A stretch of DNA of 64,000 bases, from positions 124,001 through 188,000 of the IMG/VR virus record IMGVR_UViG_3300017786_003484. One strand, 5' to 3'. This document shows positions 11,881-55,089 of this stretch, piece by piece. Below the pieces are notes generated by a model, which did no database searches, was not told where the DNA came from, and was given only the letters and a program-made list of their open reading frames with translations. How positions within the stretch are numbered: position 1 is the stretch's first letter; each line of letters begins with the position of its first letter. Made by a program: the position numbers and the translations under genes. This DNA is from a virus.

Positions 11881-11922
11881 TAGTACGCCTTTAACTCAAT
11901 ATAAAACTATTTTAAATATTAG

Positions 11923-12081: not shown

Positions 12082-12104
12082 TTGGTAAGGCAAACTTATA
12101 AAGA

Positions 12105-12121: not shown

Positions 12122-12146
12122 TAAGCAAATTCGTAGGAGAATACAC

Positions 12147-12512: not shown

Positions 12513-12513
12513 T

Positions 12514-12786: not shown

Positions 12787-12789
12787 GTT

Positions 12790-30714: not shown

Positions 30715-31956
30715 ATGCTAGTATTTGCCTTTGATAAAGAATTCCCACAGAACCACATTCAACGTCGCGACGGGCCGGATCAGAATGGAGTTATGCATCA
30801 TCCTGATCAGTTACAAGCAAAAGGAAATGGTGCATTTCTACGTTGGTTAGATAGCCTTATAGAATATGAAATATCTGACAGTTATTCTTTTGACGATAAT
30901 CCTATAGCCTTATATACTATCTGGGCAGGCAGAGGTCAGACATTCTTTGAAAAACTTAATATAATATCTGACCATCTTCGTAACTCCTCAATAGTTAGAC
31001 ATAAGAATTTTAAAATATGGATTGACTTCTCAACTGAAGGTTGGGTTATAGGTAGAGAATTCCATGATTGGGTTGTTGCAAATGATCTGCAAGGTAGAGT
31101 ATTATATACAAGTGGTCAATTTGACCAGAAACGTATGTACGAAGCAGATATCTATCCAGAACAAACTGTAATGGATTTTATTCCTACTTCTATGTGGAGA
31201 AAGTTAATTCCACCTAATGAGGTCAAGCATCTGTCTGGACAAGAATTACTGCAAAGTTTTCCTAGTTACCGTCCTACTCAAAATAGAGTTATGTGTTTTA
31301 ATAGAATAGTCAGGGACCATAGGGTCCAAATAGCACTTGAACTAGAAAATTTAAATATACTAGATAAGATTACGTTTAGTCTAACAGATAAACTAGGTGA
31401 CGAATATGATAGTATAGGCAACCAATACAAAGATTATATTAGCAAAGATGTATTTGATAGATTAAAAGCAAAACTTCCGTTGGTAGTAGACACCGACCAG
31501 TTTGATTATAATTGGATTTATGTTGAGAAAGAACACACCTACAACATATTTAAATCTCATCCTATTAATGTTGTAACAGAAACTATGTATAGGAATGATG
31601 GTAGGTTCTTATCTGAAAAATCATTTAAGCCTATGGCACTTAGACAAATTTTTCTTATTGCTGGCAACAAAGGTACATTAGAACTTCTAAGGCATTATGG
31701 CTTTAAAACTTTTGCACAATGCGGAATAGATGAGAGCTACGATACAGTATTAGATCCAACTAAAAGAATGAAAGCATTAACATTAGAAATACAAAGATTA
31801 GTAAACCTATCTGAACATAAGTTTCAAGACATATTACTAAAAGCAGAAGAAGTAATAGAGCATAATCATATATTAGTATGGGACGATGAACATGTATTAA
31901 AGAATTCCTGGGGAGAATTAGTAAATTATTTGGATCTTTTTAATAAAAAAGGTTGA
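30715..31956 (+). CDS. Glycosyltransferase-like protein (shares C-terminal domain with 38112-39443)
   Basis: 413 aa from the ATG at 30715. No certain family. The C-terminal third FLSEKSFKPMALRQIFLIAGNKGTLELLRHYGFKTFAQCGIDESYD lines up with FLSEKIWKSIRVGHPFVVVGNPGTLTELHNLGFKTFGDWWDESYD in the 38112 protein. 'Ser-Glu-Lys ... hydrophobic PF-x-x-G ... L..LGF.TF....DE.YD' resembles the C-terminal nucleotide-sugar region of GT10-type fucosyltransferases. The N-terminal part (alpha/beta) differs. Acceptor unknown. Its stop TGA overlaps the next promoter. Confidence 0.5.
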   Translation: MLVFAFDKEFPQNHIQRRDGPDQNGVMHHPDQLQAKGNGAFLRWLDSLIEYEISDSYSFDDNPIALYTIWAGRGQTFFEKLNIISDHLRNSSIVRHKNFKIWIDFSTEGWVIGREFHDWVVANDLQGRVLYTSGQFDQKRMYEADIYPEQTVMDFIPTSMWRKLIPPNEVKHLSGQELLQSFPSYRPTQNRVMCFNRIVRDHRVQIALELENLNILDKITFSLTDKLGDEYDSIGNQYKDYISKDVFDRLKAKLPLVVDTDQFDYNWIYVEKEHTYNIFKSHPINVVTETMYRNDGRFLSEKSFKPMALRQIFLIAGNKGTLELLRHYGFKTFAQCGIDESYDTVLDPTKRMKALTLEIQRLVNLSEHKFQDILLKAEEVIEHNHILVWDDEHVLKNSWGELVNYLDLFNKKG

Positions 31957-34796: not shown

Positions 34797-35093
34797 ATGC
34801 AAGAAAATATAGAAGAAGCATTAAAACAAGTATACGATCCAGAGATAAGCATCAACGTTTTTGATCTGGGACTTATCTATGATATTGATATCTCAAAAAT
34901 TCCACATGTAAATATTTTAATGACATTAACAAGTGCATTCTGTCCTTATGCAGATCAGTTAATTGAAGATGTTGAGCAAGCAGTATCTTCAGTTGAAGGT
35001 GTTGACACTTGTAAGGTTGAAGTTACCTTTGACCCGCCATTTGGTCCAGATAAAATGACAGAAGAAGTTAGAATGGTATTAGGTATTTTTTAA
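34797..35093 (+). CDS. MIP18/DUF59-family iron-sulphur assembly protein
   Basis: 98 aa. ALKQVYDPEISINVFDLGLIYDIDI is the DUF59 start (V.DPE..iniVdLGLIY.i), TLTSAFCPYADQLIEDVEQAV is the T...CP motif with the reactive Cys, and VEVTFDPPFGPDKMTEEVR is the characteristic end (V...v.PPW.p..m). Homologues (SufT, PaaD, MIP18) help load Fe-S clusters. It directly precedes and is coupled to (TAATG) a run of five Fe-S radical SAM enzymes, so a maturation role for them is a natural inference. Confidence 0.9.
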   Translation: MQENIEEALKQVYDPEISINVFDLGLIYDIDISKIPHVNILMTLTSAFCPYADQLIEDVEQAVSSVEGVDTCKVEVTFDPPFGPDKMTEEVRMVLGIF

Positions 35094-36637
35094 TGAGGAA
35101 TTGGGAAAAAAGTTGGAAAGATAAACTTAAAGAAGTAAAAGATCCAGTACAAATTGATAGGATGTCTCCTGATGAAGTAGAACGTGCTAAGAAAGAATAC
35201 TTGCTTAAACGTGGAGACGAAAACACAATAGAAGCCGGCAAGTTTAAAAGTGTTTATCAGTCAGATGCTAAGGCTGTCTTTGGTAAATTAAATCAGATAT
35301 CTCCTAGTTTCTGTTTAGCAAAATGGTTTAATGTTTCTTTACATATTCCAACTGGTAGAACACATTCCTGTTACCATCCTCCTGCACATTACGTTCCTCC
35401 GGGCGAACTTATAAACAATCCTAGTGCATTACATAACACAGAACATAAAAAGAAGCAACGAGAGATGATGCTTAACGGAGAACGTCCTAAGGAATGTTTC
35501 TTTTGTTGGAATATTGAAGATTCAGGCAATGAACTAAGTGACAGGGCATATAGAAGTAAAGATGTTTATCGTCCTGGTGTGTTTGAAGAAGTAGGAGAGC
35601 TAGGATCAACTGGAGATGCAAAGCCTAGGTATGTAGAGGTTAACTTTAACCAAGCCTGCAATTTAAAATGCTCTTACTGTAGTCCACATCTAAGTACAGC
35701 CTGGCATAAAGAAATAGACGAGAAAGGTCCTCTTAAATTAGCAGATGGTAGGGTGCATAATTCTACTGACTGGATGAAAAAAGATAACATGTGGCCTAAC
35801 AATAGTCCTGATAACATTTATCTAAAAGCATTTTGGGATTGGTTTCCAGATATATATCCTACATTACAAACTTTCCGAATGACAGGCGGAGAACCTTTGA
35901 TGGATAAAAATACTTTTAAAGTATTTGACTATGTCTTAGAAAGAAACGATAATCCGAAGTTACATTTAAGTATTACTAGTAATTGTTGTCCACCAGGTAA
36001 ACAATGGGAAAAGTTTTTAGTAAGTCTCAATCAATTAGAAGAAGCAAACGCCATTGATCACTTTATGCTATACTGTAGCCTCGATAGTTGGGGTAAACAA
36101 GCAGAGTACATAAGAACTGGTATGGACTTTGATATGCTACACAACAACGTTACAGAGTACTTAAATCGCGGTGTAAAGCATAGTCTAAACTTTATTGCAA
36201 CATTCTGTGCTATGAGCATACCTGGTTTTCAAACTTATTTAGAAAACATACTTGCATTAAGGAAAAAGTATAATACCAATAGACAACTTATTTGGTTTGA
36301 CACTCCTATGCTAATGGATCCAAATTGGTTGAGTTTAAAACTGCTTGACAAAGAGCAGTTAAATAGCTTGTTAACATGTATTGAATATATGGAAGATAAT
36401 AAAGAAGTAGTAGGCGAGCAATTTAAAGGATTTAAAGATTTTGAGATTGCCAAAGTAAAAAGATTATACGACTGGGCAATAGTACCAGATGACAATGTTG
36501 ATCAACTTCGTGCAAATTTCTATTCGTACATTGAACAACACGATACAAGGAGAGGGACAAATTTCTTAGAAACTTTTCCAGAGTTTGAAAAACTTTATAT
36601 TGAATCTAAGAAACAGTTTGATAGGTTAAAAACTTGA
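35093..36637 (+). CDS. Radical SAM protein with N-terminal four-Cys (twitch-like) domain
   Basis: 514 aa. Radical SAM motif CNLKCSYC (Cys189, 193, 196) follows a strand VEVNFNQA. N-terminal to it is a domain with Cys74, 93, 135, 138: PSFCLAKWF, HSCYHPP, NPSALHNTEHKK, RPKECFFCWNIE. MTGGEPLM after the barrel's first half is the GGEP AdoMet-binding motif. The N-terminal cysteines have the right number for an auxiliary 4Fe-4S cluster (half-SPASM or 'twitch'), here placed before rather than after the barrel. C-terminal end RRGTNFLETFP. Reaction unknown. Confidence 0.85.
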   Translation: MRNWEKSWKDKLKEVKDPVQIDRMSPDEVERAKKEYLLKRGDENTIEAGKFKSVYQSDAKAVFGKLNQISPSFCLAKWFNVSLHIPTGRTHSCYHPPAHYVPPGELINNPSALHNTEHKKKQREMMLNGERPKECFFCWNIEDSGNELSDRAYRSKDVYRPGVFEEVGELGSTGDAKPRYVEVNFNQACNLKCSYCSPHLSTAWHKEIDEKGPLKLADGRVHNSTDWMKKDNMWPNNSPDNIYLKAFWDWFPDIYPTLQTFRMTGGEPLMDKNTFKVFDYVLERNDNPKLHLSITSNCCPPGKQWEKFLVSLNQLEEANAIDHFMLYCSLDSWGKQAEYIRTGMDFDMLHNNVTEYLNRGVKHSLNFIATFCAMSIPGFQTYLENILALRKKYNTNRQLIWFDTPMLMDPNWLSLKLLDKEQLNSLLTCIEYMEDNKEVVGEQFKGFKDFEIAKVKRLYDWAIVPDDNVDQLRANFYSYIEQHDTRRGTNFLETFPEFEKLYIESKKQFDRLKT

Positions 36638-38112
36638 ATATAAGATTAAAATCAGACAAAGGCGGAGAACGGGTTTATAGAACCGACTTAGAAATTAAAG
36701 AACTTCTTGGTACAGTTAGTCCGTCATTCTGTATGGCTAAATGGTACAATGCTACAGTATGGCTTGGTTCAGGTCAAACTACTAGCTGTCATCACCCTTT
36801 ACCTCATCAGGCTGACTTAGAAGAAATTAAAAAGAATCCAAAAGCATTACACAATACCCAGCAAAAGAAAAAAGAACGTGCTATGATGCTGAAAGGCCAA
36901 AGGCCTGCTGGATGCGAATATTGCTGGAAAGTAGAGGACATTGGTAGAAATAATATTAGTGATAGAGTTTACAAAAGTGCAATCTATAATATGCCGTTGT
37001 TAGACGGGGCCGCAAAATTAGATCCTATGGAATCTGATTTTAATCTTCGTACTATGGAAATCAGTTTTGATAGGACTTGCCAGTTCGCATGTAGTTACTG
37101 CAACCCTGCATTCTCTACAACTTGGGTAAAAGACATTAGAAAAAACGGCCCTTATAAAGGTCTTAAAACAGACGGAGCGGGCCATTACGACCACGAAGCA
37201 GGTGATGCCGGAAAGTACGATAACAAAGATGATAACCCGTATGAAGAAGCATTTTTTAAATGGTGGGAAAGTGATTTACACAAGACATTAAAAGAATTAA
37301 GAGTTACAGGCGGAGAGCCATTAATGTCTAGAGGTACATGGAGATTGTTAGATTGGTTTGCAGAAGCATATCAGGACAAAGAAAAATATCCAGATTTTAA
37401 TAGACAGATGAGGCTTGCAATTAATAGCAATCTTTGTCCTAAGGACGACTTAATCGATAAGCTCGTTGAAAAAGCAATACACATTCCTGACTTAGACATT
37501 TATACATCTAACGAATCAACTAAAGAACATGCAGAATATATTCGAGACGGTTTAGATTGGGATCAATGGCTTAAAAACATTGAGAAGTTATGGACAGCAG
37601 GTCGTTTAACAAGATTCCATATGATGTGTACAGTTAATGCCTTATGCTTAGAAAGTCTACCAGAATTCTTAGAAATTTGTGTAGATATGAAAGAAAAATA
37701 TAATAGAGATTTTCCTACCTTTACGTTAAACATTTTAAGATTTCCTTCTTTTCAATCAGCAGTAGTTTTACCAGATGAGATCAGACAGAAGCATAAAGTT
37801 CGTTTAGAAAACTTTCTTAACAAGTATAAAGAGCATCCTTTGCAACATGAAATGGAGTGTAATCAAGTACAACGTTTGATAGACTACCTCGATGTAGTAA
37901 AAACTCCACATGCTGATTCATATGAACAAGCACAATTACAAGTAGACTTTAAACGTTACTATACACAATACGATAAAAGACGTGGCAAAGACTTTTGCTC
38001 TACTTTCCCTGGCTTAGCAGATTGGTATAGAACTATACCAGACCAGTATAGAAAGCCGTTGGATCCTAGTATAGAAGCCAAAAGGAAAAAGTCAATATTT
38101 GGTAGTATTTAA
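36634..38112 (+). CDS. Radical SAM protein with N-terminal four-Cys domain, paralogue 2
   Basis: 492 aa from a TTG overlapping the upstream stop. CQFACSYC (Cys149, 153, 156) and VTGGEPLM are the radical SAM motifs. The N-terminal domain has PSFCMAKWY, TSCHHPL, NPKALHNTQQKK, RPAGCEYCWKVED with Cys33, 52, 94, 97, at exactly the same spacing as in the previous protein. C-terminal YDKRRGKDFCSTFPGL matches the previous RRGTNFLETFP. Substrate unknown; probably acts with its neighbours. Confidence 0.85.
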   Translation: MNIRLKSDKGGERVYRTDLEIKELLGTVSPSFCMAKWYNATVWLGSGQTTSCHHPLPHQADLEEIKKNPKALHNTQQKKKERAMMLKGQRPAGCEYCWKVEDIGRNNISDRVYKSAIYNMPLLDGAAKLDPMESDFNLRTMEISFDRTCQFACSYCNPAFSTTWVKDIRKNGPYKGLKTDGAGHYDHEAGDAGKYDNKDDNPYEEAFFKWWESDLHKTLKELRVTGGEPLMSRGTWRLLDWFAEAYQDKEKYPDFNRQMRLAINSNLCPKDDLIDKLVEKAIHIPDLDIYTSNESTKEHAEYIRDGLDWDQWLKNIEKLWTAGRLTRFHMMCTVNALCLESLPEFLEICVDMKEKYNRDFPTFTLNILRFPSFQSAVVLPDEIRQKHKVRLENFLNKYKEHPLQHEMECNQVQRLIDYLDVVKTPHADSYEQAQLQVDFKRYYTQYDKRRGKDFCSTFPGLADWYRTIPDQYRKPLDPSIEAKRKKSIFGSI

Positions 38113-39443
38113 TGACTATAGATGAAATTAAAAATGATGATGTTGTACTTGCAATAGAATCTTGGAACGGAAAGTATAACGTCTTCTCTCCTAATGCCTG
38201 GCCAAAGAATTGGATCGTAGATGGCGTTAGAACAATTCCTCCGCTTGAAGGTAGAGATTGGTTTGATCTCAAGCCAGGTGATGCTACATTATCAGACGAA
38301 GAAGTAATGTTAAACAGAAAGCCAGGAAAGCAGATGTTTCTTTCACATTACAAAGATGAGTTTAAACATAGGTTACTCGAAGATGTTCCAGTAAATAGGA
38401 AATACTTATATCCAATTGAAATCAATAGACCGGGTGCATTAGTTAGCAATGAACATCTTAATGATTTTATGCATGTCAGTCCAACAGTAAAGCAAGATGT
38501 AAGGAATGGTCGTGCTAAGATTATATTGCTTATGCCATATGAAGGAGATTATCCTGTAGAAGTATTTGACAAGTTACATACTTGGTGTACCAACTGTGAG
38601 TTTAATAAAGATGATGTATACTTTGTCAATGCAAATATAAAAAGTGAGAAGTTAAGTAAAGATTTAAACTTTTCTGTAAAAGTACTTCCAACTATATTTA
38701 CATCTATGTTTCCTATGTACAGAGCAAACTATGATGAGAATATCTATACTAACGAATGTACATATGAACCTACTTCTAATTTAACAAATTTGTATGTTTG
38801 TTACAATAGACGTCCTAGGTACCATAGGCTCATAATGCTATGTTCTTTGTTGTCTAATAATATATGGCACAGGGGATTAATTAGTCATAGGCCGGACAAC
38901 TTTAAACAGGACCTTAGTCAAATTAATTGGGAGTTTCAGAGCTATGTAAAGATGCTAGAAGCAATAGGACCAAAAGAACTTGATATGGATTTACTTGATA
39001 ATAATCCTGCTATACAATATAATATAGATCATTACAGCCAAACGTTTTTGAGTCTTATTCCTGAAACTGGATTTTCATCTCATAGTGTTTTCTTATCTGA
39101 GAAAATTTGGAAGTCAATTCGAGTTGGACATCCTTTTGTAGTAGTTGGAAATCCAGGAACATTAACAGAGTTACACAACTTAGGATTTAAAACATTTGGT
39201 GATTGGTGGGACGAAAGTTATGACGAAGAAATTAATTTAGAGAAACGTATTAAGAAAATATCGAAGGTGCTAGTAAAACTTTCACAACTAAGTATACTTG
39301 AGTTGAAGAACTTACGACGTGATCTAAGAGATACAGTTGAGTTTAATCAAAATTTAATTAATTCCTTTGGGTTAGAAAATCCTATGGACAAAATAGCAAC
39401 AGTGGTAAAAGAAATAAATGATTCCTTTCTTCCAAGAGATTAA
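38112..39443 (+). CDS. Glycosyltransferase-like protein
   Basis: 443 aa, starting at TAATG. Alpha/beta protein: ILLMPYEGDYPVEVFDKLHTW, FSVKVLPTIFT, LTNLYVCYNRRPRYHRLIMLCSLL, then the domain shared with 30715-31956, FLSEKIWKSIRVGHPFVVVGNPGTLTELHNLGFKTF and DESYD. This last part resembles the donor-binding region of GT10-like glycosyltransferases; the call is tentative. It is embedded between radical SAM genes, with overlaps on both sides, so it likely works on the same substrate. Confidence 0.5.
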   Translation: MTIDEIKNDDVVLAIESWNGKYNVFSPNAWPKNWIVDGVRTIPPLEGRDWFDLKPGDATLSDEEVMLNRKPGKQMFLSHYKDEFKHRLLEDVPVNRKYLYPIEINRPGALVSNEHLNDFMHVSPTVKQDVRNGRAKIILLMPYEGDYPVEVFDKLHTWCTNCEFNKDDVYFVNANIKSEKLSKDLNFSVKVLPTIFTSMFPMYRANYDENIYTNECTYEPTSNLTNLYVCYNRRPRYHRLIMLCSLLSNNIWHRGLISHRPDNFKQDLSQINWEFQSYVKMLEAIGPKELDMDLLDNNPAIQYNIDHYSQTFLSLIPETGFSSHSVFLSEKIWKSIRVGHPFVVVGNPGTLTELHNLGFKTFGDWWDESYDEEINLEKRIKKISKVLVKLSQLSILELKNLRRDLRDTVEFNQNLINSFGLENPMDKIATVVKEINDSFLPRD

Positions 39444-40767
39444 AGATAAATTAGATGCAGTTAGTCCGTCATTTTGTATTGCCAAATGGAAAACTCTCAC
39501 CTTACATTTAGGCTTAGGAGAAAACCATTCGTGCTATCACCCACCAATGCATAAGATTGATCCTTGGGCAATTAAAAGAGATCCAAGTGCATTACATAAT
39601 ACAGAACATAAAAAGCAAATTCGTAAATTAATGCTAGAAGGTGTTAGGCCAACAGAATGTGATTATTGCTGGCACGTTGAAAACTTACCTGGTAACCAAG
39701 CAAGTGATAGAGTCCGTCATAGTAGTAGCCCTGATATGTTTGGAGAATTAGACAAAATTAAAAGTTCTGCATTTGATGTTAATATTAATCCAAGTTGGTT
39801 AGAGTTAAGTTTTAGTAACCATTGTAATCTAAGATGTAGTTACTGTGGCCCTGGTGCAAGTAGTCGTTGGAGAGATGAGATAAAACGTTTTGGCGGGTAT
39901 CCTGTAAGAAATGATGCACAAGGTAACGGCCCTGATGCATTACACAAGCAGTATAAAGAAGAAGAAAATCCATATGTAGAAGCATTTTGGAAGTGGTGGC
40001 CTGATCTGTATCCAGATTTACGCACCTTGCGTATTACCGGTGGCGAGCCAATGATGACTACAGGATACTTTAAAATATTTGATTATGCAATGGAACATCC
40101 TAATAAGGAATTGTCGTTTAATGTTAATACTAATTTAAGTGTACCAACAAAAACTATTGAAAAGTTTATTAACGTTGCACAAAAATTAGAAGCAAGTGGC
40201 AATGTAAAAAGTATTGGATTGTTTACCAGTATTGACACAGGTAGCAAGCCAGCTGAATATATTAGAGACGGTTTATCAAACGAAAGATATTATAATCATT
40301 TAAAAATGATTATGGATGCAGTACCTAATATTGAAGTTAGTTTTATGATTACATTTGGTCCACTAAGTTTGTTTAACTTTACAGAACTCTTAGATTTTAT
40401 TGTAACATTGAGAGAAAGATATCCTAACAATAAAATTGGAATAGGAATTGCTGTTTTAAACTATCCTAGTCACTTTGATTTAAAAATATTACCTGAACGT
40501 TTTAGGCCTTGGTTTGATAAAATTACAGCTCATTTTGAAAACCCAATGAACAAATGGCCGCAATATGAAAGAGATTACTGGAAAACATTATTAACACATT
40601 GGGAAACAACCAAAGACGATAACGGACACCTTGATGACAGAATTGACTTTTATAGATTTTTTAAAGAACATGACTTTAGACGCAAGACAAGTATACTACT
40701 AAGTGTACCTGAGATTGAAGAATTTTATCTAGAGTGTGAGGAATTAAGTTATGCAAGAAACTACTAG
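39418..40767 (+). CDS. Radical SAM protein with N-terminal four-Cys domain, paralogue 3
   Basis: 449 aa. Radical SAM motif CNLRCSYC (Cys136, 140, 143) and ITGGEPMM. N-terminal PSFCIAKWK, HSCYHPP, DPSALHNTEHKK, RPTECDYCWHVE, with Cys20, 39, 81, 84 at the same spacing (18, 41 and 2 residues between) as in the two upstream paralogues. C-terminus DFRRKTSILLSVPEIEEF. Overlaps the glycosyltransferase-like gene by 26 bases and the next radical SAM gene by 17. Confidence 0.85.
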   Translation: MIPFFQEIKDKLDAVSPSFCIAKWKTLTLHLGLGENHSCYHPPMHKIDPWAIKRDPSALHNTEHKKQIRKLMLEGVRPTECDYCWHVENLPGNQASDRVRHSSSPDMFGELDKIKSSAFDVNINPSWLELSFSNHCNLRCSYCGPGASSRWRDEIKRFGGYPVRNDAQGNGPDALHKQYKEEENPYVEAFWKWWPDLYPDLRTLRITGGEPMMTTGYFKIFDYAMEHPNKELSFNVNTNLSVPTKTIEKFINVAQKLEASGNVKSIGLFTSIDTGSKPAEYIRDGLSNERYYNHLKMIMDAVPNIEVSFMITFGPLSLFNFTELLDFIVTLRERYPNNKIGIGIAVLNYPSHFDLKILPERFRPWFDKITAHFENPMNKWPQYERDYWKTLLTHWETTKDDNGHLDDRIDFYRFFKEHDFRRKTSILLSVPEIEEFYLECEELSYARNY

Positions 40768-41932
40768 ATGTGTTAATGCAGAACACGGAATTTCTTTAGA
40801 AAATCACGGAGCGGCAAAACCTTGTTGTATGGTAAACAAAAACTATAACTGGTTATCTGATAATACTAAACACTCTATCACTCAATCGAGTTTACAAGAT
40901 TGTTATACTAACGAAGTGTCCACTCAACTTAGAGAAAATTTAAAAAATGGTATAAGAGATCCTAATTGCTCAAGGTGTTGGGACGAAGAAGATGCTGGTA
41001 GACGTAGTAAACGTATGAGAGATAATGAACGTTATGAAGATGTAGAACTAACAGGACTTGCAATACTTGAATTGAATCTTGGCAATACATGTAATCTTGC
41101 ATGTAAAACTTGTGGTCCTACAGTTAGTACTGGATGGATTAAAGAAGCCTTTGTACATTCTAAAAGAACTGACCAAAAAGAATTCAATAAGCAATTTAAA
41201 AAGTTTCAAAGAGCATATGATGATGACGCAGACTTTTGGAAGCAACTTGAAGATAATTTGCCTAATGTAAGAGAGTTATTATTTTACGGAGGTGAACCTT
41301 TTATGATTAAGAGAATGTGGAAAGTACTCCAGCTCTGTGTAGATAAGGGATATGCTAAAGATATAGAAATACATTTTAATACTAACGGAACACATTGGCC
41401 TAAAGAAACAAGTGTATTTGAACACTTTAAACATGTTCATTTGTCATTCAGCATCGACGGTATAGGCGAACGTTTTAATAGTATGAGGTTTAACGCAGAC
41501 TGGATTCTAGTTTGTGACAACATGAGAAAAGCATCTGCAATAAGAGATAAGGTAAACATTAACTTGTCATGGTGTATTACTGTTAGTAGTCTTAATATCT
41601 ATTATATTGATGAGGTTATAAAAGAGATAGAAGAAAATTGGGAAGATTTAGGATTTCATTATTACCTAAATTTAGTACATCAGCCTGCACATTGGAACGT
41701 ACAAAATATTCCAAATAATATTAAAAATAAAATTAAAGAGCATTTATCAAAGTTTAATAAAGGCATGTCCACAGATTCTTATCAAGCAATTATTAATTTT
41801 ATGATGCAAGGAAATAGTGATCCAAAGCAATGGGAGTTATTTAAACATAACATTGACAAGCAGAATAAGACTCGTAACGAAGATTGGATTGCTATTAATA
41901 AAGATTACGGGAAGTTGATTTTAGATGGATAA
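40751..41932 (+). CDS. Radical SAM protein with divergent N-terminal Cys domain
   Basis: 393 aa. CNLACKTC (Cys114, 118, 121) after LELNLGNT is the radical SAM motif; FYGGEPFM is the GGEP motif; FNTNGTHWP and LSFSIDGIGERFN follow as in SPASM-type maturases. The N-terminus has AKPCCMVN and DPNCSRCWDEEDAG, a shorter form of the four-Cys domain of the upstream paralogues. Such enzymes modify peptides or small molecules by radical chemistry; the substrate is unknown. Confidence 0.82.
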   Translation: MQETTRCVNAEHGISLENHGAAKPCCMVNKNYNWLSDNTKHSITQSSLQDCYTNEVSTQLRENLKNGIRDPNCSRCWDEEDAGRRSKRMRDNERYEDVELTGLAILELNLGNTCNLACKTCGPTVSTGWIKEAFVHSKRTDQKEFNKQFKKFQRAYDDDADFWKQLEDNLPNVRELLFYGGEPFMIKRMWKVLQLCVDKGYAKDIEIHFNTNGTHWPKETSVFEHFKHVHLSFSIDGIGERFNSMRFNADWILVCDNMRKASAIRDKVNINLSWCITVSSLNIYYIDEVIKEIEENWEDLGFHYYLNLVHQPAHWNVQNIPNNIKNKIKEHLSKFNKGMSTDSYQAIINFMMQGNSDPKQWELFKHNIDKQNKTRNEDWIAINKDYGKLILDG

Positions 41933-43250
41933 TTTTTGGAGTTATCAAAATATTAGACAAGTTCATATTGAACTAACAAATGCATGTAATGCAGGTTGTC
42001 CGATGTGTGTCCGTTTTTATCAAAGTAGTCCCTTAACTAGACCTGATATTGAAATAGGACAAATAACATTGGAGGACTTTAAAAAATTCTTTCCTCCTAA
42101 ATTTATAAAACAGTTGACAACGATACTTTTCTGTGGAGTATCAGGTGATGCAGGTACTGCTAGAGATACATTAGAGATAATGGAATATATTGCGTCTTGT
42201 GATAGTAGAGTATCAATAAGAATGAATACTAACGGAGGTATGCGTAAACCAGACTGGTGGACAAAACTAGGTAAAGTGTTTAAAAAACAAGAAAAATATA
42301 ATTGGGGGTTAACATTTAGTGTTGACGGTCTCAGAGATACTAATCATTTATATAGAAGGAATGTTGTTTGGAAAAATTTAATTAACAACATGGAGGCGTT
42401 TACTGATACAGGTGCTGATACTACATGGGATTATTTAATATTTGAACACAACGAACATCAAATTGAAACCGCAAGAGATATAGCCGAATCTATGGGAATA
42501 GCCTTTAGGCCAAAAAGAGCATTAGGAGTTGATGATGGAGAATACCTAAAACCAATTGCTGTAAGAAATAAATTAGGAACTATAGATTATTTTATTAGAG
42601 CTCCTAAAGATCCTGAAAACAGAAATTTAAAAAATCCTGTAGGTGTAAGAGATGATATGTATAATATCCGTCCTGATTTTGACACAGAAGAATATTGGAA
42701 TGTTAGAAATAAAAAGAAACCATTAGTAGGAAATCATGGACTTACTGAAGAGGCAGGATTAGCACATAACCAAGTTACGTTTGAAAAAAATATGAGCGAC
42801 GTTTATAAAACACTAGACTTAGTAGATACTACAAAACAAGATAAAACAGAAATAGATTGTAAAAGTAGTATGGATAATGGCGGCACAGAAATATTTGTTG
42901 ATCAAGCAGGTATTGTTCATCCGTGCTGTTACATAGGTACACATTTAAATAGTAAATTTTTTGCTCCAGTCACAACACAATTACATGATACAATGAATAA
43001 GCACGATGGATGGAAAAAAGTAAACCTTTATAATTATAGCTTAGAGCAAATTTTAAATTCAGGCGCCTTAAATACAATGTGGGCAAAGGCTTGGAATAAA
43101 CCAACAGTTCAACAAGGCAAGACAATGTTTTGTGCTGATACTTGTCCTAAAAATAAATTAAGTGCAGTTGATAAAATTTTCAGGCACAAAGACGACCCTA
43201 GGCCCGACGAAGGATCCTATCAAAGAAAAAAAGCACATATAAAGGAGTAA
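41925..43250 (+). CDS. SPASM-type radical SAM protein
   Basis: 441 aa, overlapping the upstream gene by eight bases. CNAGCPMC (about residues 20-27) after IRQVHIELTN, FCGVSGD in place of GGEP, RMNTNGG, and FSVDGLRDTN are radical SAM features; the C-terminal part has IDCKSSMDNGG, HPCCYIG and FCADTCPKNK, giving the cysteines of a SPASM auxiliary-cluster domain in the normal C-terminal place. Unlike its four upstream neighbours it has no N-terminal Cys domain. Peptide-modifying maturases have this plan; substrate unknown. Confidence 0.82.
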   Translation: MDNFWSYQNIRQVHIELTNACNAGCPMCVRFYQSSPLTRPDIEIGQITLEDFKKFFPPKFIKQLTTILFCGVSGDAGTARDTLEIMEYIASCDSRVSIRMNTNGGMRKPDWWTKLGKVFKKQEKYNWGLTFSVDGLRDTNHLYRRNVVWKNLINNMEAFTDTGADTTWDYLIFEHNEHQIETARDIAESMGIAFRPKRALGVDDGEYLKPIAVRNKLGTIDYFIRAPKDPENRNLKNPVGVRDDMYNIRPDFDTEEYWNVRNKKKPLVGNHGLTEEAGLAHNQVTFEKNMSDVYKTLDLVDTTKQDKTEIDCKSSMDNGGTEIFVDQAGIVHPCCYIGTHLNSKFFAPVTTQLHDTMNKHDGWKKVNLYNYSLEQILNSGALNTMWAKAWNKPTVQQGKTMFCADTCPKNKLSAVDKIFRHKDDPRPDEGSYQRKKAHIKE

Positions 43251-43252
43251 AC

Positions 43253-43414
43253 ATGAATACCCGACCAACACTATATACATGTGAATGCGGACGCATTTTT
43301 GGAGCAGAGCTGAGTGGAGATATAGGAGTTGATCCTGATTTTCTTCCAAAGTTTAAATGTGATGATTGCTCAAAAAAACAAAAAGAGGAGAGTGTTGATG
43401 TTCATATGGCATGA
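43253..43414 (+). CDS. 53-aa zinc-ribbon-like protein
   Basis: Starts at ATG 43253 after AAAGGAG. Product MNTRPTLYTCECGRIFGAEL... contains CEC near the start and FKCDDCSKK later, a CxC/CxxC zinc-ribbon pattern, with an acidic tail ending HMA. It overlaps the following SGNH gene by 17 bases. Function unknown; a small metal-binding or protein-binding module. Confidence 0.6.
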   Translation: MNTRPTLYTCECGRIFGAELSGDIGVDPDFLPKFKCDDCSKKQKEESVDVHMA

Positions 43415-44054
43415 TTTTGTTATAGTAGGAGATAGTTTTTGTATGTCTAGAAAAGCAAAAACAGACTGGCCGCAGTTAGTTTTATCAGGTCTTACTGGTG
43501 AGCCATTTGAGGATAATAAACCAGTTAGAGGTAGAGGTGTTGCAGGAGGGTCCTGGTGGAAAGCAAGAAGAATACTAAACCAAGAAGCATTTAGTAATGG
43601 TAGACCCAGAGTAATTATATTTTGTCATTCAGACTCCGCTAGAATTAACCATGATGGAAATGAACCATATAATGCCGCTACTATGGATTCTTATCCAGAA
43701 GTCAAGAGTTATTATGATCATATGTTTTCTCCTGATTTTCATAAATGGGCAAAGATTGCTTATTTTAGAGAATTAAATGCAAGATGGGACACTTCCTTAT
43801 GTTTACACTTTCATTGTTTTGACGAATTTCTAGATGACGAAGTACAACTTAACGGATTAGTTTATAAAAAGTCACTAACTAGTTTAGTTGGAGAAGATAG
43901 GTTAAAGGTAAAAGAATCTGGAATATCAAACCATATGACAAAGGACCAACAGAAAACATTTGCTGACAACATTATTAAAATGATAACTGAAAATAAAGTT
44001 GACAATACTATAGATATTATTAATGGAAATAGTAACGATGATCCGATGGACTAG
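43398..44054 (+). CDS. SGNH/GDSL-hydrolase-like protein
   Basis: 218 aa from the ATG at 43398, seven bases after GAGGAG. DFVIVGDSFCMSR is the GDS block I with the nucleophile Ser; GRGVAGGSWWKARRIL may supply the block II Gly; VIIFCHSDSARINHDG is the strand before block III. SGNH enzymes are esterases or acetylhydrolases. A second SGNH-like gene is at 45647, on the other side of the carbamoyltransferase. Substrate unknown. Confidence 0.6.
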   Translation: MFIWHDFVIVGDSFCMSRKAKTDWPQLVLSGLTGEPFEDNKPVRGRGVAGGSWWKARRILNQEAFSNGRPRVIIFCHSDSARINHDGNEPYNAATMDSYPEVKSYYDHMFSPDFHKWAKIAYFRELNARWDTSLCLHFHCFDEFLDDEVQLNGLVYKKSLTSLVGEDRLKVKESGISNHMTKDQQKTFADNIIKMITENKVDNTIDIINGNSNDDPMD

Positions 44055-44166
44055 AAATAGATTATTTGTTCAGTATTTTATCAACTTATGGACTAAGTTT
44101 AAAAGAAAACGCCGAATGGCACAAAATATCAAAGAAGCAAAAAAACGAGACCCGTTTATATACTAA
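44038..44166 (+). CDS. 42-aa basic small protein
   Basis: Product MIRWTRNRLFVQYFINLWTK..., ending KKRDPFIY: one amphipathic hydrophobic helix and a strongly basic second half. It overlaps the SGNH gene by 17 bases and its TAA overlaps the carbamoyltransferase ATG (TAATG). The RDPFIY ending reminds me of small uncharacterised marine phage proteins. Function unknown. Confidence 0.45.
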   Translation: MIRWTRNRLFVQYFINLWTKFKRKRRMAQNIKEAKKRDPFIY

Positions 44167-45647
44167 TGAAAATACTTGGCATCACAACTCAAAACCATGA
44201 CGCTAGTTTAGCACTAGTAAGTGGAAATAGAATACTCTGGGCAGGCCACTCGGAAAGATATTCTCGCAACAAAAATGATTCTATTTTAAATCAAGACATA
44301 GTTGATGAGATGCTTTCATATGGAAAGCCTCAAAAAATTGTATTCTTTGAAGATGTAATTGAAAAGAGTTGGAGAAAATGGAGAGCAAGCGAAACACCTT
44401 ATAACCATCACAATTTAGTTAAAGAAGAACTTAGAAAGTATGGCTTGCTAGATACAGGTTGGAATTATGTAAAACATCATAGAGCTCATGCCGCCGGAGG
44501 ATTTTATACATCTGGCTTTAGGAATGCTCTAGTAATTAGCATTGATGCAATAGGAGAAAGAGATACGACTACATTCTGGAAAGCAAAGGACGGTGTATTA
44601 GATAAGAAGCCTTTCCTGCGTCAAAGTTATCCTGATAGTATTGGATTATTTTATAGTGCATTAACAGATTTTGTTGGGCTAAAAGCAAACGAAGAAGAAT
44701 ATATTTTTATGGGGATGGCGGCATATGGAAAAGTTATTCCTGAACTTAAGAAACTTATGCTACAGGACTTCTTTAAACAACTCAATCCTCCTTACTTTAA
44801 ACTAAGACATAACTTACATAGAGGTTGTCGTTGGTGGGAAGTTCCTAAAGAAATTAGTTATGGACATTATGATATAGCGGCCTGTGCCCAATCTATTGTA
44901 GAGGATTATCTTATTGATTCTGTAAATTATTTAAAAAAATATTGGACAGTATCATCCAATTTAGTGTTCATGGGAGGCGTTGCATTAAATTGTGTTGCGA
45001 ATACAAAACTATCTAAATTATTTAAAAATACATACATCATGCCTAACCCAGGGGATTCAGGAAGTGCTATTGGAGCAGTAGCGGCTTACCTAGATAAACC
45101 ATTATCGTGGAAAGGTCCTTACCTAGGAACTAATATTGAAGGAGAACTTAATATTAAAAAAGCAATAGCCTCATTGATGCAAGGAAATGTTATAGGAATT
45201 GCCAAAGGTCGTGCTGAATTTGGTCCTAGAGCATTAGGCAATAGAAGTTTACTATGCGATCCACGAGGTGCCAATGCTAAGAACAAAATGAATGAAATAA
45301 AGAAAAGGCAAAAATTTAGACCCTTTGCACCTGCAGTATTAGCGGAACATGCAAACACATATTTTGATATGCCAATGAAAGAAACGCCTTACATGCAGTA
45401 TGTAACTCAGTGCAAACAGCCTAACGAGTTTCCTGCTATATGTCATGTGGACAATAGTAGCAGAGTTCAAACTGTAAATAATACAACAGATAATAAAATG
45501 TTTAGAGCCTTACTAGAAGAATGGTATAAAGTATCAGGTTGCCCAATGTTAATGAATACTAGTTTAAACATCAAAGGAGAGCCTTTAGTAAACTCATGGG
45601 AAGATGCTAAACGTTTTGAAGAATTACATAATATTGAGATTTTTTAA
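44166..45647 (+). CDS. NodU/CmcH-type carbamoyltransferase
   Basis: 493 aa. N-terminal MKILGITTQNHDASLALV and HHRAHAAGGFYTSGFRNALVISIDAIGERDTTTFW are the Kae1-like ATPase-type carbamoyltransferase motifs with the HxxxH metal pair; the C-terminal domain has AEFGPRALGNRSLLCDPR, RQKFRPFAPAVL and MNTSLNIKGEPLV, hallmarks of the family. It transfers a carbamoyl group from carbamoyl phosphate to a hydroxyl of a sugar or nucleoside. Known in marine T4-like phages. It ends the run of modifying enzymes from 34797 and is coupled to a SGNH hydrolase. Confidence 0.92.
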   Translation: MKILGITTQNHDASLALVSGNRILWAGHSERYSRNKNDSILNQDIVDEMLSYGKPQKIVFFEDVIEKSWRKWRASETPYNHHNLVKEELRKYGLLDTGWNYVKHHRAHAAGGFYTSGFRNALVISIDAIGERDTTTFWKAKDGVLDKKPFLRQSYPDSIGLFYSALTDFVGLKANEEEYIFMGMAAYGKVIPELKKLMLQDFFKQLNPPYFKLRHNLHRGCRWWEVPKEISYGHYDIAACAQSIVEDYLIDSVNYLKKYWTVSSNLVFMGGVALNCVANTKLSKLFKNTYIMPNPGDSGSAIGAVAAYLDKPLSWKGPYLGTNIEGELNIKKAIASLMQGNVIGIAKGRAEFGPRALGNRSLLCDPRGANAKNKMNEIKKRQKFRPFAPAVLAEHANTYFDMPMKETPYMQYVTQCKQPNEFPAICHVDNSSRVQTVNNTTDNKMFRALLEEWYKVSGCPMLMNTSLNIKGEPLVNSWEDAKRFEELHNIEIF

Positions 45648-46483
45648 TGATAATAAGAAAAAGAAGCAAAGTTAACACACCTGATAAGACTATTCTAATA
45701 TTAGGAGATAGTTTTGCTTTTGGTCACGGATGCTCTGATAGGTCTTATTGGGTTGATGAAGATGGAAACGAACATGGCAAAAAGTTTGATTTTAGATACC
45801 CAAGTGAATATTGCTATGCTTCTCTAATTGCAAAAGACAATCCAACTTGGAGAGTAATTAATAAAGGCAAACCTGGTTTAGATAGTTTATCTATGTTTCA
45901 GGACGTATTAAAATGTAGGAAAGAAATAGGACATATTGACTATATTTTGGTTTCTTTGAGTTTTGACGATCGTATATTAGTTAGGAATCCTCATTTAGAG
46001 GAAGATAAAAGCAAGTTTCTTTCTTGGCCAAGATTTGGCTTTTCACCTAAAAACGAAAAAGATCATATTTTTGGTTATCCAGAACCTATGGTGTTTAGAC
46101 TAGCGAGTAGTGATAACGAAATTCCAACAATAGAACAAGAACATCACGAAGCACTAAAGGCATATAGAAATGAACTGTTTAATCCAAGAGTTACAAACCT
46201 TGCTTCTTTAAGTTTAGTTCATGCTTTTTATTCAATTTGTATTACTAATGATACACAATATAATTGGTCAGCTCCACCTAATTCATCACTTTCAAAGACC
46301 GATATGTATGATCATATATCAGACACAATCAGAAACAGCCAGGTCCCTGGAATTCTTACACATTTAAATTATAACAATACACCACCTTTCTCAAAATACA
46401 GGGCGCCAGATGGTCATGCAAATGACTTAGGACATAGTAAGTACTACGAAGATGTTCTAAAGCCAATTATGGACCGTTTATAA
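45647..46483 (+). CDS. SGNH/GDSL-hydrolase-like protein
   Basis: 278 aa, TAATG start on the carbamoyltransferase stop. TILILGDSFAFGHGC is block I with the nucleophile Ser; INKGKPGLDSLSMFQDVL may be block II; YILVSLSFDDRILV precedes block III, and RAPDGHANDLGHSKYYEDVL holds the C-terminal DxxH (DGHAND...H). This is a fuller SGNH pattern than in the 43398 protein. Esterase/acyl hydrolase role inferred; it may edit the product of the carbamoyltransferase cluster. Confidence 0.72.
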   Translation: MIIRKRSKVNTPDKTILILGDSFAFGHGCSDRSYWVDEDGNEHGKKFDFRYPSEYCYASLIAKDNPTWRVINKGKPGLDSLSMFQDVLKCRKEIGHIDYILVSLSFDDRILVRNPHLEEDKSKFLSWPRFGFSPKNEKDHIFGYPEPMVFRLASSDNEIPTIEQEHHEALKAYRNELFNPRVTNLASLSLVHAFYSICITNDTQYNWSAPPNSSLSKTDMYDHISDTIRNSQVPGILTHLNYNNTPPFSKYRAPDGHANDLGHSKYYEDVLKPIMDRL

Positions 46484-52415: not shown

Positions 52416-52847
52416 ATGGCAGTAAAAAAAGATTTATCTGTATACTTGGTGGCGCCGCCTACATTACACCTTCCGCCATCAGGTTTCAGTATCTGTTTAA
52501 TGAGTAACGACGAGTCTTTTCAAACAGAGCTAGTTAACTTATTAGACAAAGGTATTGCAAGAGAGCAACTTACCATCTATCTAAATCCCAATTTTAAATC
52601 AGTAGATCCAAAGTTATGGATATGGTATTGGCATATTATTAATTTTACTGACTTGACTATTATTGATACTAAGAATGTAACAGAGCAAGAACTAAGAATG
52701 TCAATAGCCATAGCAAACACTAAACCTATTATATTTAAAACTGGATATGATGATGAATTAGATACACTTTTTAAAACAATTAGATGTCCAACATACAGTA
52801 CACTTGAACAACTTGACTTTTTCATGGAAGGTATTTTTGGAGAATGA
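52416..52847 (+). CDS. Unknown protein, Rossmann-like
   Basis: 143 aa, start directly at the upstream stop. Strand-helix alternation: LSVYLVAPPTLHLPPSGFSICLM, LTIYLNPNF, WYWHIINFTDLTIIDTKNVT, AIANTKPIIFKTGYDDELD, IRCPTYSTLEQL. This looks like a small Rossmann/deoxyribosyltransferase-like fold with 'D-L-T-I-I-D' and 'KPIIF' strands, but the catalytic residues of that family are not evident. Overlaps clpX by four bases (ATGA), so cotranslated with it. Confidence 0.45.
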   Translation: MAVKKDLSVYLVAPPTLHLPPSGFSICLMSNDESFQTELVNLLDKGIAREQLTIYLNPNFKSVDPKLWIWYWHIINFTDLTIIDTKNVTEQELRMSIAIANTKPIIFKTGYDDELDTLFKTIRCPTYSTLEQLDFFMEGIFGE

Positions 52848-54112
52848 GTGATAAAAAGAAACAAGATAAGTTAGAATGTAGTTTTTGTGGTAAATCAAGA
52901 GAGCTGGTTACTAGTTTAATTGCCGGAGAGAAAAGTTTTATTTGTAATGAGTGTGTTGATCTTTGTGTTCAGGTTTTAGCAGGAGAAGAAGACCCTAGAG
53001 AACATAGTTTTGATAATGCAACAACTCCTAGCCAAATTAAAGAATACTTAGATAGATTTATTGTTAGTCAGGATAGTGCTAAAATAGCCCTTAGTGTAGA
53101 AGTAAGAAATCATTACAAAAGAGTACACCAGAAAAAGAAAAATATTATTAAAAAAAGTAACGTATTGTTAATTGGTCCTACTGGGTCCGGCAAAACTTTA
53201 TTAGCTCAGAAGTTAGCAGAAAATTTAAATGTTCCTTTTGCCGTTGCAGATGCAACTACTCTAACAGAATCTGGGTATGTAGGTGATGATGTTGAAAATG
53301 TTATTCACAGGTTATTACAAAATGCAAACTATGATATTAGGTTAGCAGAACGTGGTATCATATACATTGATGAAATTGATAAAAAAGGACGTAAAAGCGA
53401 AGGCTCTAGTATCACAAGAGATGTTTCCGGCGAAGGTGTGCAACAAGCATTACTTAAACTTATTGAAGGATCAGAAATACGAGTACCTCCGCAAGGTGGA
53501 AGAAAACATCCTGGTAAAGAAACAATATTGATTAACACTAAGAATATACTGTTTATACTTGGTGGTGCTTTTATTGGATTAGAAGAATCTGTTAATAAAC
53601 GTATACAAGGTAATGGAAGTACTATGGGCTTTGGTGCAAAATTACAAAATAAAGAAAAAAGTACAGATGACTGGCTTAGAAATGTAGAACCAGAAGATTT
53701 TGTTAAGTATGGCATGATTCCAGAGTTTATAGGTCGTATTCCTGTAATTACTGCATTAAAATCATTAGATGTTAACGACCTAGTTCGTATATTAAGTGAG
53801 CCCGAAGATAGTATTATCAAAGAGTTTATTGAGATATTTGATATGGATCATGTAGAACTAGAATTTACCAAAGAAGCACAATACTGGATAGCACAAGAGT
53901 CGGTAAATAAAAAAACAGGTGCAAGAGGTTTAAGAAACATCATCGAAGACCTTTTGAGGGAAGTACAATTTACACTTCCGGAACAAGCCCTAGATGGGCT
54001 TACAAAGGTTATTGTCCAAGCACCTAGAGATGGCAATGATAAACTAGTATTACTATATAGGCAGAGTCCTAAAAGAAAAAATAGTAATGCCACCAAACAA
54101 CAAGAGAGTTAA
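52844..54112 (+). CDS. clpX: ATP-dependent Clp protease ATP-binding subunit ClpX
   Basis: 422 aa, full length. N-terminal zinc-binding domain with Cys12, 15, 34, 37 (CSFC...CNEC); Walker A GPTGSGKT (111-118); Walker B IIYIDEID (172-179); pore-loop RKH (220-222); MGF (261-263) at the place of the IGF loop that docks on ClpP; KKTGARGLR sensor 2. All elements for unfolding and ClpP docking are kept. It would feed substrates to ClpP (24691) or to host ClpP. Adjacent to bS21 and Hsp20. Strong call. Confidence 0.96.
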   Translation: MSDKKKQDKLECSFCGKSRELVTSLIAGEKSFICNECVDLCVQVLAGEEDPREHSFDNATTPSQIKEYLDRFIVSQDSAKIALSVEVRNHYKRVHQKKKNIIKKSNVLLIGPTGSGKTLLAQKLAENLNVPFAVADATTLTESGYVGDDVENVIHRLLQNANYDIRLAERGIIYIDEIDKKGRKSEGSSITRDVSGEGVQQALLKLIEGSEIRVPPQGGRKHPGKETILINTKNILFILGGAFIGLEESVNKRIQGNGSTMGFGAKLQNKEKSTDDWLRNVEPEDFVKYGMIPEFIGRIPVITALKSLDVNDLVRILSEPEDSIIKEFIEIFDMDHVELEFTKEAQYWIAQESVNKKTGARGLRNIIEDLLREVQFTLPEQALDGLTKVIVQAPRDGNDKLVLLYRQSPKRKNSNATKQQES

Positions 54113-54409
54113 ATGGCTTACCAAAAGAAAATGAGACGCGGAAATAAAGAGACTATTGGAAACGGAATTTATGTTGCTGTCAAAGATGGCAATGTAGAAA
54201 AAGCAATTAAACGTTTTAAGAAGAAAGTACAAGAGTCTGGTATTCTAGATGAGTATCGTGCAAAGAAAGAATATGTTAAACCAAGTACAGTAAAAAGGCT
54301 TGCTAAGAATGCCGCAAAAAGGCGTGCTACAAAGCAAAGACTAAAAGATGAAGCTGAGGGTTTAAACGGTTATAATCCAAATACGCCACGTAAAGGCAAA
54401 AAACGGTAA
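54113..54409 (+). CDS. rpsU: Ribosomal protein bS21 homologue
   Basis: 98 aa; starts at the clpX stop. VAVKDGNVEKAIKRFKKKVQESGILDEYRAKKEYVKPSTVKRLAKNAAKRRATKQR aligns along its length with bS21 (xVxxNExxxxALRRFKRxxxxxGxLxExRRRExYEKPxxxRKRxxxxA). It has a 10-20 residue N-terminal extension and a C-terminal GlyAsnPro-containing tail. bS21 sits on the 30S platform near the anti-Shine-Dalgarno; phage copies (for example in pelagiphage HTVC008M) are thought to replace the host protein and bias initiation. Adjacent to clpX. Confidence 0.9.
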   Translation: MAYQKKMRRGNKETIGNGIYVAVKDGNVEKAIKRFKKKVQESGILDEYRAKKEYVKPSTVKRLAKNAAKRRATKQRLKDEAEGLNGYNPNTPRKGKKR

Positions 54410-54428
54410 AATAAACCTAAAAAACCAC

Positions 54429-54457
54429 TTGACTTTTAGGTTGAGAATAACTATATT
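54429..54457 (+). promoter_or_regulatory. Sigma70-type promoter of hsp20, inside a 9-bp inverted repeat
   Basis: TTGACT (54429-54434), 17-nt spacer, TATATT (54452-54457). AACCTAAAA (54414-54422) and TTTTAGGTT (54434-54442) form an inverted repeat flanking the -35, either a weak terminator for bS21 or an operator. Confidence 0.65.
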
Positions 54458-54460
54458 ATA

Positions 54461-54550
54461 GTAGTAGGCATTGCTCATGAGAGAATGCTACATTACTCGA
54501 GAAAGTCCATTATGGATTTCTCATTACAATCTTGCTTAATAAAGGAGATA
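54461..54550 (+). promoter_or_regulatory. ROSE-like RNA thermometer candidate in the hsp20 leader
   Basis: The leader folds into successive hairpins: GTAG...CTAC around 54461-54491, GAGAAA-G-TCCA with TGGATTTCTC (54499-54522), and last a stem in which ATCTTGCTT (54529-54537) faces AAGGAGAT (54542-54549), hiding the Shine-Dalgarno. TTGCT opposite AGGAG fits the U(U/C)GCU core of ROSE elements that control alpha-proteobacterial small heat-shock genes. Pairing is weak (G-G, C-A, T-G), as expected for a temperature-labile helix. Confidence 0.5.
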
Positions 54551-54555
54551 AAATT

Positions 54556-55002
54556 ATGACAAGAATTACTACACTAGACCTACCATTTTTATTTAAAAGC
54601 GGTATCGGTTTCGACAGAGTTTTTAACCAAATGGAAACTCAATTTGCAAATAGCAAAACCCAAAATTACCCACCATATAATATTATTAGGAATAGTAACG
54701 AAAACTACCTAATCGAAATTGCGGCCGCTGGTTTCCTAAAACCGGATATTGCAATTACTATGGAAAACGGTACATTAACTGTAAATGGTCAACAGACTAA
54801 AGAAGATACTGATGGCGAAGACGAAGCCAATGGTATTGAATATTTGCACAGGGGACTTTCAAGACGTAACTTTGTATTGACATTTAACTTAGCAGAATAT
54901 GTAGAAGTTAAAAGTGCTGATATGAATAACGGAATCTTGAGTATTCACTTAGAGAAAAAGATCCCAGAAGCAATGAAGCCTCAAGTTATTTCTATTAAAT
55001 AA
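54556..55002 (+). CDS. Small heat-shock protein (Hsp20/IbpA type)
   Basis: 148 aa from the ATG at 54556 (AAGGAG seven bases upstream; a TTG further up is less likely because it lies in the leader hairpin). NYPPYNIIRNSNENYLIEIAAAGFLKPDIAITMENGTLTVNGQQT is the alpha-crystallin core, and YLHRGLSRRNFVLTFNLAEYVEVKSADMNNGILSIHLEKKIPE with the conserved A-x-x-x-N-G-I-L-x-I. It holds unfolding proteins in the cytoplasm. Hsp20 genes are typical of marine T4-like phages. Followed by a strong terminator. Confidence 0.95.
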   Translation: MTRITTLDLPFLFKSGIGFDRVFNQMETQFANSKTQNYPPYNIIRNSNENYLIEIAAAGFLKPDIAITMENGTLTVNGQQTKEDTDGEDEANGIEYLHRGLSRRNFVLTFNLAEYVEVKSADMNNGILSIHLEKKIPEAMKPQVISIK

Positions 55003-55020
55003 CTTAAATGCATAACATGA

Positions 55021-55053
55021 AGAGGGAGGATAACACCTCCCTCTTTTTCTTTA
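55021..55053 (+). terminator. Rho-independent terminator after hsp20
   Basis: AGAGGGAGG (55021-55029) and CCTCCCTCT (55036-55044) form a perfect 9-bp stem with a six-base loop, followed by TTTTTCTTT. The best terminator in the window. Confidence 0.92.
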
Positions 55054-55059
55054 TAAATA
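55052..55059 (+). promoter_or_regulatory. T4-late-type promoter box TATAAATA before clpS
   Basis: Exact TATAAATA immediately after the hsp20 terminator T-run and 30 bases before the clpS ATG. With T4 geometry the mRNA would start near 55065 and keep the GAGAAAGG ribosome site. Confidence 0.55.
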
Positions 55060-55089
55060 TCATTGTAGCAAATGAGAAAGGTTACCTAA

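Follow-up and report, generated by a model that had tools for sequence, protein, structure and literature searches.

We identified, in a 64,000-nucleotide stretch of viral DNA (hereafter the window; positions 124001–188000 of IMG/VR record IMGVR_UViG_3300017786_003484), a cluster of twelve genes built around five radical S-adenosylmethionine (rSAM) enzymes, whose relatives in other viruses are kept in a fixed order beside tail-fibre and glycosyltransferase genes. Our favoured interpretation, which we consider about as probable as all others combined, is that the cluster is a phage tailoring pathway for a tail-fibre-linked glyco/protein decoration, most likely a glycan or glycopeptide. The cluster occupies positions 34797–46483 of the window, and its open reading frames (ORFs) agree with the first-pass annotation of this DNA, which described the genes as overlapping or touching—all twelve overlap or abut, and all lie on the + strand. 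The same annotation took the genes for a biosynthetic or modification cluster, not a set of singletons, and the co-inheritance seen across relatives bears this out.

The source record (G000) is a virus contig of 244,432 bases that may be incomplete. It contains eight rSAM genes in total, five of them packed into seven consecutive genes of the cluster, an arrangement never reached when positions among 330 genes were drawn at random 200,000 times. These five had been recognized from the outset, and all retain the CxxxCxxC motif; the initial count is extended here by three rSAM genes outside the cluster. Two of the three are in the window, close to its end and on opposite strands between 60021 and 62532 (60021, + strand; 61570, − strand), and one of the pair carries a trace of a B12-binding domain (8e-4).

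Radical SAM paralogues and their fibre linkage in related viruses

The five rSAM genes of the cluster are designated a to e. Four of them—P0002 (a; 35093–36637), P0003 (b; 36634–38112, with a TTG start), P0005 (c; 39418–40767), and P0006 (d; 40751–41932)—score 312.7, 313.2, 300.8, and 280 bits, respectively, against the NCBIfam model for N-terminal twitch rSAM proteins (NF033640), a subfamily model named for its domain alone, with a curated cut-off of 170 bits. The fifth, P0007 (e; 41925–43250; PF04055, 6.5e-6), has a SPASM-like C-terminus (0.017) and scores 48.9 bits, below the NF033640 cut-off, and was therefore handled as a separate rSAM family; together with P0002, P0005, and P0006, it is a core member of the cluster. 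Seven cysteines are invariant in 63 homologues (P0005 numbering)—C20, C39, C81, and C84, which precede the rSAM core, and C136, C140, and C143, which form the CxxxCxxC triad—and this set suggests that each twitch rSAM carries one auxiliary and one catalytic iron-sulfur (Fe-S) cluster. The AlphaFold2 model of P0005 (predicted local distance difference test score, pLDDT, of 94.7) has BlsE (13.4), SkfB (13.2), and DesII (12.9) as its nearest folds, with anSME also among the closest; because these are ties, the fold comparison does not separate a sugar from a peptide substrate. For P0007, the closest solved structure is the sugar-acid enzyme BlsE (2e-7), which we count in favour of a glycan pathway.

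We compared gene order across related viral loci, with counts drawn from the best 80 matches of each scan and near-identical contigs counted separately. Scanning viral contigs with P0006 yielded 41 loci, and the recurrent order in these was F16-F10-F8-F12-F5-F9-F2-(DUF59)-rSAMs-F4-SGNH-SGNH-carbamoyltransferase, where F numbers denote protein families. F16 is a tail fibre (phrog_19602, 5e-23) that is annotated as such in Campylobacter phages, F5 and F12 match glycogenin, GT8 (E 2e-4), and F2 is GT-A-like. With rSAM seeds, at least three rSAM genes were present in 66 of 78 loci and fibre-module genes in 65; with seeds from the P0007 family, the corresponding counts were 68 and 36 of 73. Seeding with F2, a family unrelated to the rSAM enzymes, recovered fibre-module genes in 76/76 loci over 9 kb, and within 10 kb an rSAM gene was found in 74 of the 76 loci and at least three in 60. 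In loci L413, L416, and L424, the fibre cassette and the rSAM run are convergent and yet still adjacent, so the link between the two does not rest on one operon. Related virus records can be rich in rSAM matches, with up to 22 in a single record (G023, 328 kb, the record of locus L141) and 14–20 in several others.

Within these runs, the rSAM paralogues occupy characteristic positions. Among relatives, a-b-d (43 loci) and a-c-d-e (24 loci) are the orders seen most often, and the window order, a-b-glycosyltransferase-c-d-e, looks like their union. Orthologues of P0002 (57–63% identical) come first in the rSAM run, those of P0003 (55–63% identical) belong to the a-b-d arrangement, and those of P0005 in many relatives come immediately after a. 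A tree of 136 rSAM proteins, built with a quick method and with several long branches flagged, groups proteins of the P0002, P0003, P0006, and P0007 types each with their counterparts at the same position in other phages. Such position-wise orthology matches what would be expected of a multi-step pathway of old paralogues, although it does not prove that their substrates differ. We thus regard the rSAM paralogues in fixed order as the core of the functional unit.

When genomes were scanned with the alignment of rSAM proteins, most matches came from Bdellovibrionota, whose rSAM proteins are 33–47% identical to those of the cluster and fall within several positional groups of the tree. By Pfam, the recurrent neighbours include ABC-2 export genes, a glycosyltransferase of the GT1 family, and two further proteins, one PqqD-like and one a small peptidase-S74 protein; the loci also hold a carbamoyltransferase and SGNH proteins, detected with the hidden Markov model (HMM) families built here, and, judging from their sequences, an aminotransferase and pseudopilin-like proteins. 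One locus (L054), an array of eight rSAM genes, looks chromosomal because apparent ObgE and ribosomal L21 genes adjoin it. We also observed, in L089, L091, L105, L113, and L126, small proteins whose conserved N-terminus (FGGI...IE.E.LN.S) is joined to a chaperone domain of the peptidase-S74 type; lying near PqqD-like and twitch-rSAM genes, they are possible rSAM substrates.

Glycosyltransferase, accessory, and surrounding genes

Between rSAM genes b and c lies P0004 (38112–39443), which has no match in Pfam, PHROG, or NCBIfam. Its AlphaFold2 model (pLDDT 74.5) was compared with known structures, and the top-ranking matches were GT-B enzymes (VIA Z up to 12.8 over about 300 residues), including T4 beta-glucosyltransferase, an alpha-1,3-fucosyltransferase, and PglA. 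The earlier label of glycosyltransferase-like can accordingly be sharpened to a predicted two-Rossmann GT-B fold. Homologues of P0004 (families F14 and F19) recur among the rSAM genes of relatives, and a paralogue from the F14 family lies a few kb upstream in the window (30715–31956, + strand; F14 HMM, 124.8 bits).

The remaining recognizable enzymes are loose accessories that are gained, lost, or moved independently. P0001 (34797–35093; 98 amino acids) is an Fe-S assembly protein of the DUF59/MIP18 type (SufT/PaaD-like; PF01883, 3e-20) that meets this broader family and, at 117.6 bits, falls under the cut-off of 143.4 for the SUF-associated DUF59 model TIGR02945. The first-pass annotation had this gene leading the run, an arrangement that is not general—DUF59 is found in one of 78 rSAM-seeded and 13 of 40 P0006-seeded loci, following the carbamoyltransferase in L016 and lying between rSAM genes in L024 and L027. 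Being both rare near rSAM genes in general and variable in position, it was rejected as an obligate cluster leader. P0011 (44166–45647) is an O-carbamoyltransferase of the NodU/TobZ type, with both domains over cut-off (PF16861, 179.3 bits, 5.9e-53; PF02543, 132.6 bits, 2.9e-38) and a match to phrog_1601 (2e-104); its relatives are 43–60% identical. A carbamoyltransferase is present in 17 of the 78 rSAM-seeded loci, and reciprocal seeding placed 43 of 68 carbamoyltransferases and 27 of 68 DUF59 genes near rSAM genes. Two SGNH genes had been proposed, of which P0012 (45647–46483) has HMM support (F7, 7.8e-6; one F7 member matches GDSL/DUF6071), whereas P0009 (43362–44054, its start uncertain at about 43362) is recognized by its GDSF motif only, with no family match and a homologue in one related locus (L014, 27%). 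Judged by the refuting condition set in the first-pass annotation, scattered genes with independent gain or loss in related phages, the single-cluster reading is thus partly refuted: it holds for the rSAM core and not for the DUF59, carbamoyltransferase, and SGNH genes.

The two smallest genes had been put forward as precursor candidates. P0008 (43253–43414) encodes a 53-amino acid four-cysteine, ribbon-like protein, and P0010 (44023–44166) a 47-amino acid basic protein (42 amino acids if read from an internal ATG at 44038). Neither has homologues beside rSAM genes in related loci, in a search that did not cover every very short ORF, and none of 27 phage records yielded a PqqD-type recognition protein, with a positive control in three genomes. 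Both thus find no support as precursors of ribosomally synthesized and post-translationally modified peptides (RiPPs).

Several genes outside the cluster deserve mention. Upstream of the window, positions 110310–113308 of the record (10310–13308 of locus L047) encode a complete tripartite ATP-independent periplasmic (TRAP) transporter set (DctQ, 2.5e-20; DctM, 1.7e-60; DctP, 2e-32), accompanied by a further DctP-like protein (L047 8759–9838) and a protein resembling the alpha subunit of ring-hydroxylating oxygenases (record positions 114835–115920, L047 14835–15920; PF00848, 1.6e-6). The window itself holds a Gram-negative porin fragment (3–683; PF13609, 3.2e-17) whose frame continues upstream of the window, a TctC periplasmic binding protein (8269–9189, − strand; 3e-22), and a row of ClpX, small-heat-shock-like, and ClpS-like genes (52844–55407), the last two recognized by eye. 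The T4-type late promoter core, TATAAATA, occurs in seven copies in the record versus about 57 expected from base frequencies, and for this reason the expression timing of the cluster cannot be read from it; one copy sits 75 bases before a tail-fibre-like gene at record position 58474. Scans for sigma-70-like and terminator-like signals gave counts below the shuffled expectation.

A possible tailoring pathway and competing explanations

Glycosyltransferases, a carbamoyltransferase, SGNH proteins, and rSAM enzymes are together typical of glycan tailoring, and because the module is linked to fibre genes, the virion fibre is the likely carrier. In such a pathway, glycosyltransferases—P0004 and the GT8-like and GT-A-like genes beside the fibre genes—would attach sugar to the fibre protein or to a carrier, and rSAM paralogues a to e would then each perform one different radical step, whether dehydrogenation, epimerisation, deoxygenation, or bond formation. 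The carbamoyltransferase would transfer a carbamoyl group onto a hydroxyl, and the SGNH proteins would add or remove acyl groups. DUF59 may assist Fe-S cluster loading, a role that fits the heavy Fe-S demand of the module, where each twitch rSAM probably needs two clusters. The finished decoration might act in receptor binding or in protecting the fibre. The glycan-type neighbours of the Bdellovibrionota orthologues, and the fibre gene followed by several rSAM genes in the cultured phages Phosso and Atu_ph07, also speak for such a pathway. A bolder version, to which we give tentative credence while judging it doubtful, is that these genes represent an unrecognized form of virion maturation, in which rSAM enzymes, acting as a position-specific chain, equip large-phage tail fibres with a radical-tailored glycan or cross-link, and in which the same enzymes tailor surface structures of predatory Bdellovibrionota. 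If fibre decorations are indeed made by radical chemistry, they would constitute a new kind of virion modification that could bear on host recognition, and these loci would provide many untested rSAM enzymes.

Several observations weigh against a fibre-directed glycan pathway. In the source record, the fibre half of the module (F16, F10, F8, F12, and three F2-like genes; record positions 6374–14230, minus strand) lies about 145 kb from the rSAM half (158797–170483), so that linkage in the window's phage is by homology only; displaced rSAM islands occur also in nearer kin of this virus (L291, L300, and L304). The fibres are no richer in serine and threonine than other fibres, a measure that does not discriminate. 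A nucleotide-sugar epimerase was not found in the record, a T4-type late promoter is absent in front of the cluster, and the profiles of F2 and F4 gave no meaningful match in the PDB, leaving F2 without a solved relative. Among the fold neighbours of the rSAM enzymes, the peptide enzymes SkfB, SuiB, and anSME rank as high as BlsE and DesII, and the separate counting of near-identical contigs also tempers the locus counts.

That the rSAM structures are no further from the peptide maturases SkfB and SuiB than from sugar enzymes speaks for a RiPP-like system, in which the rSAM enzymes would modify or cross-link side chains of a fibre protein or small precursor, and the glycosyltransferases and carbamoyltransferase would act on the same polypeptide. 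It is in keeping with this that fibre genes adjoin the module in phages, and that in Bdellovibrionota loci a twitch rSAM is accompanied by both a PqqD-like protein (PF05402, 1.2e-12) and a small protein of the peptidase-S74 type. The PqqD domain, on the other hand, is missing from all 27 phage records, no conserved small precursor was seen beside the rSAM genes within the limits of the short-ORF search, and carbamoyltransferase, SGNH, and multiple glycosyltransferase genes are commoner in glycan pathways; we consider this explanation unlikely. Next in probability, and unlikely as well, is remodelling of host surface glycans, whereby the enzymes would alter host lipopolysaccharide or capsule in the course of infection, for example against superinfection, and would lie near fibre genes since both adapt to the same receptor. 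Bacterial orthologues do occur in exporter-linked polysaccharide loci, and one report gives this reading for the glycosyltransferases of the pelagimyophage host-recognition region (PMC7029224), but we noticed no exporter or membrane transferase in the phage cluster on inspecting the sequence, and the module is almost always linked to fibre structural genes.

We attach little probability to an auxiliary metabolic role, in which the rSAM enzymes would boost host metabolism during infection. That is the published interpretation of the CP220/CPt10 module (PMC2853527); the enzymes of the present cluster, however, are not equivalogs of any metabolic enzyme, sit with fibre and glycosyltransferase genes, and include paralogues kept in order. 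Least probable of all, in our estimation, is DNA hypermodification, with the carbamoyltransferase and glycosyltransferase acting on hydroxymethylated bases as in the case of phage 5-carbamoyloxymethylcytosine. A phage carbamoyltransferase of the same superfamily does modify 5-hydroxymethylcytosine (5hmC) (PMC8670742), and T4 beta-glucosyltransferase is among the tied best structural matches of P0004. Yet GT-B is a very common fold, and the linkage of the module is to fibres. P0011 moreover keeps the canonical G358 and R360 (TobZ G421 and R423, mapped by eye), where the 5hmC enzyme has C and T; I345, at the position of TobZ W408 in the same by-eye mapping, is uninformative on the 5hmC type. A homologue of thymidylate synthase/dCMP hydroxymethylase was not found in the possibly incomplete source record, where the control was positive, and a thymidylate synthase homologue is present in 10 of 27 related records. 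Carbamoyltransferases on unmodified contigs have been described as flanked by unrelated genes such as glycosyltransferases (PMC8670742).

Comparison with known systems

Clustering of rSAM genes in phages is already known, with multi-rSAM modules on record since 2010. Campylobacter phages CP220 and CPt10 carry an interchangeable five-rSAM module that was read as boosting host metabolism (Timms et al. 2010, PMC2853527). Like the window, with its five rSAM genes and predicted GT-B enzyme, the CP220 module combines five rSAM genes with two nucleotide-diphospho-sugar-transferase-like genes in about 10 kb; three of its rSAM proteins match the P0007-family HMM at 77–83 bits, and some 10 kb downstream there is a fibre whose C-terminus is F16-like. 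It differs in having no N-terminal-twitch quartet, carbamoyltransferase, or DUF59 in the stretch examined, and in having an amidinotransferase, which a Pfam scan did not find among the proteins of the window cluster. The marine T4-like genome TARA_ERS488813_N000010, compared by description only, encodes 12 rSAM genes and "paaD" (DUF59 family) in one phage (Nishimura et al. 2017, PMC5332604); in the portion of that article available, these are discussed as Fe-S metabolism, with no mention of clusters, fibres, or glycosyltransferases. As far as the accessible text of PMC7029224 goes, the pelagimyophage host-recognition cassette brings tail fibres, glycosyltransferases, and rSAM cassettes into one variable region, but there the glycosyltransferases are read as modifiers of the host O-chain, and rSAM types and order are not analysed.

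Among the cellular systems, the surface-glycan loci of Bdellovibrionota share related twitch rSAM enzymes, carbamoyltransferase, SGNH proteins, and glycosyltransferases with the phage cluster; they differ in their PqqD-like, ABC-2 exporter, aminotransferase, and pseudopilin-like neighbours, none of which was found in the phage cluster. With the O-carbamoyltransferases TobZ, NodU, and GdmN, P0011 shares both Pfam domains and the canonical EFGPRALGNRS and RPFAP motifs.

Literature searches for rSAM enzymes with jumbo phages and carbamoyltransferase, or with Bdellovibrio and carbamoyltransferase, returned nothing, and we found no report of a linkage between rSAM modules and fibres. The fixed order of the rSAM paralogues, their near-invariant fibre linkage, and the Bdellovibrionota counterpart thus appear to be new, and the fibre linkage supplies a specific testable target, namely the tail fibre together with its sugars. 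A comparable layout is seen in Sinorhizobium phage Phosso and Agrobacterium phage Atu_ph07—a giant structural protein followed by an F16-like fibre (260–274 bits) and next by several short rSAM genes interspersed with unknown genes, with four rSAM matches per genome (E ≤ 0.001)—and, as these rSAM proteins are weakly related to a to e, the two phages are layout analogues more than orthologues. Together with CP220 they offer cultured models of the module, for which Bdellovibrionota provide the cellular counterpart.

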